NCBI GenBank assembly: GCA_947458275.1
Contig: CANGYR010000003.1
Coordinates: 124,001 to 188,000 of the forward strand
Length of the DNA: 64,000 bases
Reading direction: 5' to 3'
Source: Chitinophagaceae bacterium
GTDB lineage: Bacteria; Bacteroidota; Bacteroidia; Chitinophagales; Chitinophagaceae
This document shows, piece after piece, positions 38,346 to 42,734 of the stretch. The notes under the pieces were generated by a model. That model made no database searches, had not been told where the DNA came from, and saw nothing but the letters and a program-made list of their open reading frames with translations. A program made the translations under genes and the position numbers. The number at the start of each line of letters is the position of its first letter. Positions within the stretch are counted from its first letter, which is position 1.

Positions 38346-39902
38346 TTAGAATGGACTTTCTTCGTCATATTCACCATCGTTCATTTTGCTGCCTTTCTGG
38401 ATGAACATTTTAGCACCATCGTCTCCCGCTCCGGAAACCGGACGCCAGTTCCCCTCTTTAGGTAAAGCAGGATTAAAGCCGCTGTCACCTTCGTCTTCAA
38501 TAAACTTCTGAATATGGAGGAGTGCCTTGAGCTTGATGGTTTCCAGACTACCATTTCTGTGCTTGGCTATTCTTACAAAAGTTTCGCCTTTATTGCTCTC
38601 ACCGAATGCATCCGCGTTGATATCGTGATATTCGGGACGATACAAAAACATTACCATATCCGCATCCTGCTCAATAGCTCCGGACTCTCTCAAATCACTC
38701 AACTGAGGCATTTTATTTCCCTCTTTTCTTTTTTCTACTTCCCTGCTTAATTGAGACAACGCAATGATAGGTATTTGCAGCTCTTTCGCCAGTCCTTTCA
38801 GGTCTCTTGAAATTTTACTGATTTCCTGTTCTCTGTTGCTGTTTCTGTCGCCGCTGCCACTCATCAGCTGAAGGTAATCAATGATGATAATGCCTACATT
38901 GTGTTTGTTTTTTAATCTGCGACATTTCGCTCTCAACTCAAAAATATTTAAAGCGGCAGAATCATCAATAAAGATGGGGGCTTTACTGAGTTTTTCAATT
39001 CCTCGCTTGTACAATTGTTTCATTTCATGCTCTTCCAGCTTACCACGTGAAATTTTTTCAAGATTGATTTCACTCTCAGCACTGAGAATACGTTGTACCA
39101 GCTGAGCGCTGCTCATCTCCAGACTAAAGAATGCCACAGCACAAGGTTTGGTGGAGTTCATGGCTGCGCTGCGTGCCAGATTGAGGGCAAAGGCAGTTTT
39201 ACCCACTGAAGGCCTTGCTGCAAGAATAATCAGATCGGTAGGTTGCCATCCATAGGTGATTTTATCTATGGTTGGAAAGCCGGTAGGGACACCGGTAATT
39301 TCTTCTTGACGGTTACGCATATCCTCAATGCGCGTAATCGTTTTCATAAGAACATTATCAATCGTATCAAAATTTCTTCTGAGATAACTATTCATGATTT
39401 CAAATAGTTTTCCCTCCGCTTTATCTAGCATATCAAAAACATCTGAACTGTCTTCGTAGGCATCACCGATTATTTCTCCGCTGATGCGAATCAGTTCGCG
39501 CTGGATAAACTTTTGCACCACAATGCGCGAGTGTGCGTCAATGTTAGCAGCAGAAACCACCGAATTGGTCAACTTTGTGATGTAATAAGGTCCTCCGACA
39601 AACTCAAGATCATTCCGCTTTTTGAGCTCCTCCACTACTGTCAGCAAATCAATAGGAGAACCTACATCTGCGAGAGATTCCATCGCTTTGAAAATTCGCT
39701 GGTGTGCATCTACATAAAAACATTCGGGCTTTAAAATTTCTCTAACGGTATCAAAGGCACTTTTCTCCAGCATGACCGCACCCAATATTGCCTCTTCCAG
39801 TTCTTTTGATTGAGGAGGAATTTTTCCGAATACCATTGAACCCAAATCTATGGGTGTTTTCTTTCTATTGAATCTGTCTTTACCAGTGTTGATGAGGTCC
39901 AT
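38346..39902 (-). CDS. dnaB: replicative DNA helicase DnaB
   Basis: 518 aa. The N-terminal primase-interacting domain (PQSKELEEAILGAVMLE) and linker lead to the RecA-like ATPase core: Walker A ARPSVGKTAFALN, Walker B IIIIDYLQLMSG, the sensor ALSQLSREVEKR and the arginine-finger region KHRNG. The C-terminal ~70 residues are an extension with an acidic end. DnaB unwinds DNA at the replication fork. The 420 bp upstream hold a cluster of DnaA-box-like sites; no exact TAnnTTTG box was found for this gene. Confidence 0.97.
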   Translation of the reverse strand: MDLINTGKDRFNRKKTPIDLGSMVFGKIPPQSKELEEAILGAVMLEKSAFDTVREILKPECFYVDAHQRIFKAMESLADVGSPIDLLTVVEELKKRNDLEFVGGPYYITKLTNSVVSAANIDAHSRIVVQKFIQRELIRISGEIIGDAYEDSSDVFDMLDKAEGKLFEIMNSYLRRNFDTIDNVLMKTITRIEDMRNRQEEITGVPTGFPTIDKITYGWQPTDLIILAARPSVGKTAFALNLARSAAMNSTKPCAVAFFSLEMSSAQLVQRILSAESEINLEKISRGKLEEHEMKQLYKRGIEKLSKAPIFIDDSAALNIFELRAKCRRLKNKHNVGIIIIDYLQLMSGSGDRNSNREQEISKISRDLKGLAKELQIPIIALSQLSREVEKRKEGNKMPQLSDLRESGAIEQDADMVMFLYRPEYHDINADAFGESNKGETFVRIAKHRNGSLETIKLKALLHIQKFIEDEGDSGFNPALPKEGNWRPVSGAGDDGAKMFIQKGSKMNDGEYDEESPF

Positions 39903-40041
39903 GTTCTTCTTATAATATTTTTAAAAAATCATTTTATTGCGTTTATGCGGGACAGTGAGCCGGCAAATTTCTGTCAGTCAAATGGCTGATCAGAATTACT
40001 AAATTAAAAGCAATTCATTAATAATTACTTAACAAAGCTGA

Positions 40042-40168
40042 TTATGCACTCTTTGAGGATGTTTTTCCACCGGTAATCCACATATAAATGTACGTTATCC
40101 ACCCCTTATTAACTAATGTATGCACATGAGATTTGAAAACAGGGTTAAAAAATCAGCATTTATGCACA
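40042..40168 (+). other. array of six DnaA-box-like sequences (candidate oriC or DnaA-controlled region)
   Basis: In the 39903-40322 gap between dnaB and pheT, six same-strand sequences match TTWTNCACA at 8/9 or 9/9. They are TTATGCACT (40042), TTTTCCACC (40063), TAATCCACA (40074), TTATCCACC (40095), GTATGCACA (40118) and TTATGCACA (40160, exact). Start-to-start distances are 21, 11, 21, 23 and 42 bp, close to multiples of the helical turn. An A/T-rich stretch (about 40185-40260) follows. The rest of the gap holds the pheT promoter box and nothing else that I recognise. Confidence 0.6.
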
Positions 40169-40292
40169 AATGCAGGTATCAGAAAAGAGAATTTTTTACA
40201 CCTTACAAAGAAATATTTTTTTGGAAAAATGGTGAAAATTTCATCAGATTAAAGGCGAATCATTTGAAACTGCCTATCTAAAGCCAAAAAAC

Positions 40293-40300
40293 TATATTTG
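40293..40300 (+). promoter_or_regulatory. -7 promoter box of pheT
   Basis: TATATTTG, exact match, 22 nt before the pheT ATG. A TTTG at 40263-40266 lies 26 nt upstream, longer than the 19 nt seen elsewhere here. Confidence 0.5.
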
Positions 40301-40322
40301 CACCTATAAATTAATTATTTAG

Positions 40323-42734
40323 ATGACTGTTTCATACAATTGGCTGGCTGAATATTTACCTGTTTCCATCGATCCGGAAAAATTGTCCGTAATACTGACT
40401 TCCATCGGACTCGAGGTAGAAAGTCTTACGCAATACGAATCAATAAAAGGCGGATTGAATGGCTTGGTGGTGGGGGAAGTCCTTTCCTGTGAAAAACACC
40501 CCGACGCAGATAAGCTGAAGCTCACTGCTGTTAATGTAGGCGCTGAAAAACCTTTGCAAATTGTTTGCGGTGCACCCAACGTGGCTGCCGGACAAAAAGT
40601 GATTGTTGCCACTGTAGGCACAAAAATTTATCCAACAGCAGGGGATCCTATTGATATTAAAAGAGCAAAAATCAGAGGTGTTGAAAGCGAGGGCATGATT
40701 TGCGCTGAAGATGAAATCGGATTGAGTGACCATCACGAAGGCATAAAAATTCTTCCGGCGGAAACCACTCCCGGAACAAAAGTCGCAGCGTTGTTTCCCA
40801 CTTACAGTGATTTTATTTATGAAATCGGCCTCACGCCCAACAGAATGGATGCCATGAGTCATCTGGGAGTTGCAAAAGATGTGTGTGCTTATTTATCTTA
40901 TCACGAAAAAAAATCTTACAGCGTAAAGCTGCCCTATCCCGAAAGTTTCAAGACCGACTCTTCCGACGCGGGATTCAGTGTAAGCATTGAAAACAATGAT
41001 TCCTGCAAAAGATATACCGGGGTTTTAATAAATGGAATCAAGGTAGCTGAAAGTCCTCAGTGGTTGCAGGGTAAATTAAAAGCTATTGGACTCAGGCCGA
41101 TCAACAATATTGTAGATATCACCAATTACATTCTGCACGAAACCGGGCAACCCTTGCATGCTTTTGATGCAGATTACATAAAGGGGAAAAAAGTTATTGT
41201 AAAGAATGTTGCGGAAGGTACTTTGTTCAAAACGCTGGATGACAAAGAAAGAAAACTCTCCCGTGAGGATCTGATGATTTGCAATGAAAATGAGGCGATG
41301 TGCATTGCCGGGGTGTACGGAGGTATTAATAGTGGCGTAACAAACACTACAAAAAATATTTTTCTGGAGAGCGCTTATTTTGAAGGAGGAAGCATTCGCA
41401 AAACTTCGTTCAGGTATGGACTCAGAACAGATGCGGCCGCTCGCTTCGAAAAAGGAGTTGATATCAGCAATACGCTCAATGTGCTCAAACGAGCTGCAAG
41501 CATGATTAAAGAAATTGCCGGTGGTAACATTGCCGGCGATGTCATCGATGTTTATCCAAGTCCTGCCTCTAAAACAAGCGTTGTATTTACCAATGCTTAT
41601 CTGAAAAAACTCAGCGGTAAATCTTATGAGCAAGCGGATGTAAAAAGAATCTTAACCGGCCTGGGATTTGAGATACTTTCTGAAAATGCTGATCAGCTTA
41701 CTTTGGCTATTCCTTTTTCAAAACCGGACATTTCTATCCCTGCAGATATCGTGGAAGAAATCATGCGGATTGATGGTCTGGACAACATAGAAATACCTTC
41801 CGCTATCACCATTACCCCATCCATAGAAAAAGATAAAAGAAAGTTTGCGCTGAGAGAAAAAACATCTAATTATCTGGCGGGACAGGGATTCTATGAGATT
41901 TTCACCAACAGCATCAGCAACAGTGCTTTTTATGATGAAAAAGAATTGGCAGGTGCTGTTAAAATGATGAATAGTCTGAGTGCTGATTTGGATATACTCA
42001 GACCATCGATGATTCACAGCGGATTGCAAGTGATTGCACACAACATCAACAGAAAAAACAACAATCTGCGGTTATTTGAATTTGGCAAAACGTATAATGC
42101 TGCAGGCCAGGGGCAATATGCAGAAAAAAATCACCTCAGTCTTTATGTAACAGGCAATACACAGGAAAAAGGATGGAGAACGGAAGTAAAAAAGGCCGAC
42201 TATTTTTATCTGAAAGGAGCCGTTGAAAATCTGTTTAAACTGATTGGACTTAATAAATTAAAGTTTGAAGCAACCGAGCATTCAATCTCATCCATCATGC
42301 TCAATGGCAAAACTGTAGGGCATTTTGGAGAAGTAAGTCAGGCTTTATTAAAACAATTTGACATCAAGCATGCCGTGTATCATACAGATATAGACTGGGA
42401 TCTTGTTTTAGAGCAGAAAGAAAAACCTGTTCAATACAGAGAGATTCCAAAGTTCCCATTTGTAAACAGAGACCTGGCCTTGGTGGTGGATAAAAATGTT
42501 TCCTATTCACAGATAGAACAAATAGCTTTATCTAGGAAAATCGGTCAGCTCAGCTCCGTTTCGCTTTTTGATATCTTTGAAAGCGAAAAACTGGGTAAAG
42601 ACAAAAAGTCGATGGCATTGAGTTTTACTTTTCTGGATGAAACCAAAACCCTGACGGACTCAGAAATTGATGGATTCATGCAAAAAATCATCGCTGGTCT
42701 TGAAAAAGATGTACAAGCCGAAATAAGAAAATAG
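40323..42734 (+). CDS. pheT: phenylalanyl-tRNA synthetase beta subunit
   Basis: 803 aa, full length. Domain order: N-terminal part, EMAP-like tRNA-binding domain (about 40-150, with VVGEVLSCEKHPDADKLKL), B3/B4 editing domain (LRPINNIVDITNYI, GQPLHAFDAD), B5 domain, catalytic-like core and a C-terminal ferredoxin-like anticodon-binding domain (KFPFVNRDLALVVDKNVSYSQI). It works as alpha2-beta2 with PheS; pheS is not adjacent here. It is the first gene of a cluster continuing with a coiled-coil protein and zapA. Confidence 0.97.
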   Translation: MTVSYNWLAEYLPVSIDPEKLSVILTSIGLEVESLTQYESIKGGLNGLVVGEVLSCEKHPDADKLKLTAVNVGAEKPLQIVCGAPNVAAGQKVIVATVGTKIYPTAGDPIDIKRAKIRGVESEGMICAEDEIGLSDHHEGIKILPAETTPGTKVAALFPTYSDFIYEIGLTPNRMDAMSHLGVAKDVCAYLSYHEKKSYSVKLPYPESFKTDSSDAGFSVSIENNDSCKRYTGVLINGIKVAESPQWLQGKLKAIGLRPINNIVDITNYILHETGQPLHAFDADYIKGKKVIVKNVAEGTLFKTLDDKERKLSREDLMICNENEAMCIAGVYGGINSGVTNTTKNIFLESAYFEGGSIRKTSFRYGLRTDAAARFEKGVDISNTLNVLKRAASMIKEIAGGNIAGDVIDVYPSPASKTSVVFTNAYLKKLSGKSYEQADVKRILTGLGFEILSENADQLTLAIPFSKPDISIPADIVEEIMRIDGLDNIEIPSAITITPSIEKDKRKFALREKTSNYLAGQGFYEIFTNSISNSAFYDEKELAGAVKMMNSLSADLDILRPSMIHSGLQVIAHNINRKNNNLRLFEFGKTYNAAGQGQYAEKNHLSLYVTGNTQEKGWRTEVKKADYFYLKGAVENLFKLIGLNKLKFEATEHSISSIMLNGKTVGHFGEVSQALLKQFDIKHAVYHTDIDWDLVLEQKEKPVQYREIPKFPFVNRDLALVVDKNVSYSQIEQIALSRKIGQLSSVSLFDIFESEKLGKDKKSMALSFTFLDETKTLTDSEIDGFMQKIIAGLEKDVQAEIRK

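Follow-up and report, generated by a model that had tools for sequence, protein, structure and literature searches.

In Mycobacterium tuberculosis, a genomic pull-down found DnaA bound upstream of the replicative helicase gene dnaB (PMC7738170), and in Caulobacter crescentus a review places dnaB in the DnaA regulon, with predicted boxes upstream of the gene (PMC8203912). The array of DnaA-box-like sites that we describe here, in a Chitinophagaceae genome, likewise lies upstream of dnaB. Binding was shown in M. tuberculosis and is predicted for our array, and the two gene contexts are not alike. The Caulobacter dnaB promoter shares the predicted upstream boxes and belongs to a gene that responds to DnaA (PMC8203912), in an organism from a different phylum than the host of the array. 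Within the same phylum, chromosome I of Prevotella intermedia carries an oriC with multiple boxes away from dnaA, as in our case. A clear GC-skew transition marks the position of those Prevotella boxes (PMC4755523), whereas on three contigs of related genomes the array has none. In Escherichia coli, datA, DARS1 and DARS2 (see PMC4585315) resemble the array in being conserved box clusters outside oriC and differ from it in that the array is attached to dnaB. In the open-licence literature, we found no report of Bacteroidota with DnaA boxes in front of dnaB and no description of a family-wide, one-sided ladder of boxes spaced by whole helical turns. The new part is the family-wide phased and co-oriented array; DnaA action upstream of dnaB has already been reported for Caulobacter and M. 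tuberculosis.

The assembly comprises 2.89 Mb in 87 contigs, and the window, that is, the whole stretch of 64,000 nucleotides that was analysed, is part of its 215-kb contig C3. Within the 420-bp dnaB-pheT gap of the window, six plus-strand 9-mers resembling the box TTWTNCACA occupy positions 40042-40168. Those starting at 40042 (TTATGCACT), 40063 (TTTTCCACC), 40074 (TAATCCACA), 40095 (TTATCCACC) and 40118 (GTATGCACA) carry one mismatch each, and the sixth, at 40160 (TTATGCACA), is exact. Their start-to-start distances of 21, 11, 21, 23 and 42 bp are near whole helical turns. A sequence-only reading of the window had reported these six same-orientation matches (five at 8/9, one exact) and their spacings, and we recovered both exactly. 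It had also noted A/T-rich DNA 3' of the array, where we measured a GC content of 26.6% at 40169-40322, compared to 34.6% in the array and 39.0% in the window, and flanking genes that point away from the array, which Pfam identified as dnaB on the minus strand (38346..39902; PF00772, PF03796) and, as its divergent neighbour, pheT on the plus strand (40323..42734), encoding the phenylalanyl-tRNA synthetase beta chain. Further one-mismatch matches, absent from that reading, follow past the array at 40192 (+), 40194 (+) and 40220 (-). Upon shuffling the dinucleotides of the 420-bp gap 2000 times, we obtained a mean of 1.25 and a maximum of 4 same-strand boxes, with none of the shuffles reaching six, while the window as a whole showed no enrichment (204 box matches versus 211 expected). 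As no Rfam match was found within 39700-40500 at E up to 1, the region was dropped as an RNA element.

The sequence-only reading had proposed a comparison of this gap across related genomes, and in these relatives we found the boxes to be kept and co-oriented. Relatives came from a PheT search of 59 relative genomes and from a DnaB search of genome contigs, among whose 80 best loci the closest matches were Chitinophagaceae and Ferruginibacter assemblies. Both genes were present at 92 loci, and we analysed the 84 with a gap of 150-1000 bp, leaving out 8 with a gap of at least 1000 bp. These 84 gaps contained 103 exact boxes on the plus strand and 10 on the minus strand (shuffle means 6.9 and 2.5), as well as 300 and 89 one-mismatch matches (105.6 and 58.1). 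The exact minus boxes were thus mildly enriched too, with a shuffle maximum of 7, and several gaps from Chitinophaga had a minus box 14-15 bp beyond the last plus box. At least three boxes within 130 bp, one mismatch allowed, were found on the plus strand in 77/84 gaps and on the minus strand in 4/84, and the 49 non-redundant gaps that remained after clustering held 53 plus and 2 minus exact boxes. For an intergenic control, we used the 58 gaps of loci L036-L115 (the 26 gaps of L006-L035 were left out): exact boxes occurred at 0.24 per kb in intergenic DNA elsewhere at these loci versus 2.66 in the gaps, and three same-strand boxes within 130 bp in 3 of 56 such intergenic stretches versus 51 of the 58 dnaB-pheT gaps. 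DnaA-regulated promoters are marked by boxes that keep a fixed position in front of the gene and are conserved among relatives, as observed here.

The spacings between plus boxes in these gaps clustered at 11-12, 21-23, 32, 41-44, 54-56 and 62-67 bp. With the variant TTATNAACA taken into the box set, the best period was 10.85 bp for the full set of 84 (R 0.504; null maximum 0.147) and 10.80 bp for the 49 non-redundant ones (R 0.591; null maximum 0.171 in 500), against a null in which boxes were scattered randomly within each array and which ignores shared ancestry and box overlap. In the array itself, the co-oriented boxes are separated by one, two or four turns of the helix and are thus exposed on a single face of the duplex.

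In an alignment of 352 sites, the commonest bases give TT(A)T(C/T)CACA, which is the DnaA box, although the sites had been chosen by box similarity and are biased in that direction. This consensus counts, with the same bias, against a reading in which a protein other than DnaA recognises the repeats as TTATNMACA, for instance an unknown regulator of dnaB or pheT. In favour of such a protein, the variant TTATNAACA is as one-sided in the 84 gaps (56 plus, 2 minus) as the box form TTATNCACA (79 and 2), and it is the only one-sided form at the level of the class. Among the best 30 loci of 118 matching genomes, minus the window's own (29 loci, L236-L264), strict TTWTNCACA was not co-oriented in the 350 bp upstream of dnaB (7 plus, 7 minus), and TTWTNAACA occurred 28 times on the plus and 5 times on the minus strand, in 20 of the 29 loci. 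This class-level motif may represent the array in a weaker form, or it may have nothing to do with it. Overall, we regard a different binding protein as quite unlikely.

The array follows dnaB. For 22 loci at which no pheT was seen within 1 kb, we counted 71 plus and 22 minus boxes (18 and 2 when exact) in the 450 bp directly upstream of dnaB, with at least two plus boxes in 20/22 loci and at least three in 12/22. Conversely, 11 pheT loci had no dnaB within 1 kb; one of them ended at a contig edge and two showed the array of a distant dnaB, which left 8 informative loci. None of these 8 had an exact box within 1 kb of pheT, and L058 showed three scattered one-mismatch plus matches. We accordingly dropped the boxes as a property of pheT. 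The position of the array within ~450 bp of dnaB, beside a promoter-like element and even without pheT, also counts against the notion that it mainly acts on DnaA itself, by titration or by ATP/ADP exchange like datA and DARS, with the proximity to dnaB being secondary, because titration alone would not require such a fixed place. Sites of the datA/DARS type depend on IHF or Fis and affect the nucleotide state of DnaA, and co-oriented box clusters suit DnaA oligomers. The co-orientation of the array would fit this role, as would dense, conserved boxes that, on three contigs, lie away from the origin defined by skew. We consider a mainly DnaA-directed function to be unlikely.

The promoter-like element next to the array, a putative dnaB promoter, lies at 39999..40006 on the minus strand (CTAAATTA on the plus strand, TAATTTAG when read toward dnaB), 36-43 bp from the first box. 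It is one base off the Bacteroidota -7 box, TAnnTTTG (PMC9723704). Its generalised form CTAA[GA][GTA]TA, which reads TAnnTTAG toward dnaB, was found in 51/84 gaps, at a median of 96 bp from the dnaB start, compared to 1/84 on the other strand and 7/84 and 8/84 for letter-scrambled controls, and was absent from the other 33. In 50 of the 51 gaps a box lies beyond the element, mostly 20-80 bp further. Because the published -7 box is TAnnTTTG, we can only infer that CTAA[GA][GTA]TA serves as the dnaB promoter. On the opposite side, a promoter-like -7 box for pheT lies at 40293..40300 on the plus strand (TATATTTG), 30 bp before the start codon, and the published -7 box, as TANNTTTG, was found within 120 bp of pheT in 73/84 gaps, versus 7/84 for the reversed motif. 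The low-GC stretch at 40169..40292, between the array and this box, belongs to the A/T-rich DNA (26.6% GC) that doubles as the pheT promoter region.

A cluster of DnaA boxes, an A/T-rich flank and divergent genes together could also describe a replication origin, at which DnaA would polymerise on the phased boxes and melt the A/T-rich flank so that bidirectional replication starts from the dnaB-pheT gap. Consistent with an oriC, the array was the best box cluster in the 211 kb scanned of contig C3 (score 11; runner-up 6), the genome's own dnaA lies on a different contig, and the oriC of Bacteroidetes is described as commonly far from dnaA in PMC4755523. We dropped dnaA as a rival cluster site because none of 11 dnaA loci had more than two exact boxes or more than three same-strand matches within 130 bp. 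In three genomes, dnaA and pheT share a contig without being neighbours, at distances of ~119 kb (G061:C1), ~127 kb (G063:C21) and ~119 kb (G064:C2).

GC skew spoke against an origin at the gap in three of four sampled genomes. We sampled 20-kb stretches along contigs of three relatives (G059:C4, G060:C1 and G061:C1), corrected their skew for gene strand and fitted step models. Over 150 kb on either side of the gap, the corrected skew kept its sign in G059 (-0.045/-0.042), G060 (+0.043/+0.024) and G061 (+0.025/+0.054), and the negative-to-positive switch expected of an oriC was found elsewhere, on the pheT side of the gap in each. The fitted origin was at 2.31 Mb with the gap at 1.16 Mb in G059 (1.15 Mb apart), at 0.96 and 1.62 Mb in G060 (0.66 Mb apart), and at 0.68 and 1.50 Mb in G061 (0.82 Mb apart), and a fraction of 0.010, 0.000 and 0.002 of the bootstraps, respectively, fell within 100 kb of the gap. 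Contig C3 itself, one of 87, showed no clear skew switch, and the stretches sampled from G064 were too flat in skew for use. In a fourth genome, the single 5.08-Mb contig of G159, skew was weak and the best-fit origin at 4.55 Mb came near dnaB at 4.734 Mb, a locus that lacks pheT and shows a single exact plus box over 600 bp. The data for G159 are ambiguous and compatible with an origin close to dnaB, and we therefore retain oriC as a rival. Hence, of the two options that the sequence-only reading had offered, the origin did not hold up in three of the four sampled genomes (fitted origins 0.66-1.15 Mb off) and was set aside as the leading view, while a DnaA control site gained indirect support from the conserved, co-oriented, phased and dnaB-linked boxes. 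We judge an oriC in this gap to be improbable.

A separate site in Chitinophaga adds to the evidence against an origin at the gap. At G061:C1:780515-780545, an exact inverted box pair (TTATCCACA, 13 bp, TGTGAATAA) falls between a negative skew stretch at 0.65 Mb and a positive one at 0.80 Mb, and the same pair recurs at G063:C21:626279-626309. Allowing up to three mismatches, we found it once per genome in 22/40 Chitinophaga genomes, with no match for the control; its boxes were identical in all 22 and its spacer was variable. The pair shares a contig with dnaB in 11/22 genomes, always in the same relative orientation and in 10 of these 11 at a distance of 0.72-1.2 Mb; in G210 the distance is ~0.8 Mb, provided that the contig closes into a circle as long as the rounded genome size. 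The pair is a candidate origin, possibly inside a gene. In G060, no box cluster scored above 6 in the 420 kb around the skew minimum, and the origin was not found there; the exact minimum, near 869 kb, lies inside an apparent mobile element.

Box groups of other kinds were also seen. The array's own genome contains an inverted exact box pair with a partial box between (TTATACACAACCCTGTGGATATGTGTATAA) at G000:C4:141479-141508, which is a possible true oriC. It also contains exact same-strand pairs at L001 (G000:C20) and L002 (G000:C32), which we set aside as oriC because the surrounding ORFs look phage-like by eye; G000:C32 may be a contaminant. In a genome of the same order, L194 (G040:C33) has three exact same-strand boxes in 43 bp (1501-1543) within a 1.4-kb intergenic stretch, which looks like an origin or a DnaA site. 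The triple adjoins a gene that appears PIN/PhoH-like by eye and that gave weak partial matches alone in 15 other genomes searched.

Given the conservation, shared orientation, helical phasing and dnaB linkage of the boxes, we favour, with modest confidence, a reading in which the gap holds two divergent promoters and, on its dnaB side, an element for control by DnaA. The protein, probably in its ATP form, would cooperatively bind the co-oriented boxes just upstream of the dnaB promoter and, from one face of the DNA, tune dnaB transcription. Transcription of dnaB would thereby go up or down with the level of free DnaA, and the supply of helicase would be matched to initiation capacity, while the same boxes may soak up some DnaA as a by-product. 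Counting against DnaA control, only one of the six boxes in the window is exact and the other five have a mismatch, the dnaB promoter-like element deviates by one base from TAnnTTTG and is missing from 33/84 gaps, the exact minus boxes are somewhat enriched, and strict boxes outside the family are not co-oriented. More tentatively, and as something we would not yet expect to hold in full, we propose that Chitinophagaceae, and more weakly other Bacteroidia, may possess a dedicated DnaA-sensing dnaB switch separate from oriC, in which a one-sided phased ladder of strong and weak sites polymerises DnaA and couples helicase supply to initiator activity.

How the amount of replication machinery is tied to the initiator is an open question in bacteria, and Bacteroidota have been little studied in this respect. 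The strongest box cluster may lie beside a replication gene without being the origin, and box-based origin prediction in Bacteroidota may therefore mislead. The conserved, phased box ladder on dnaB offers a compact and testable element.
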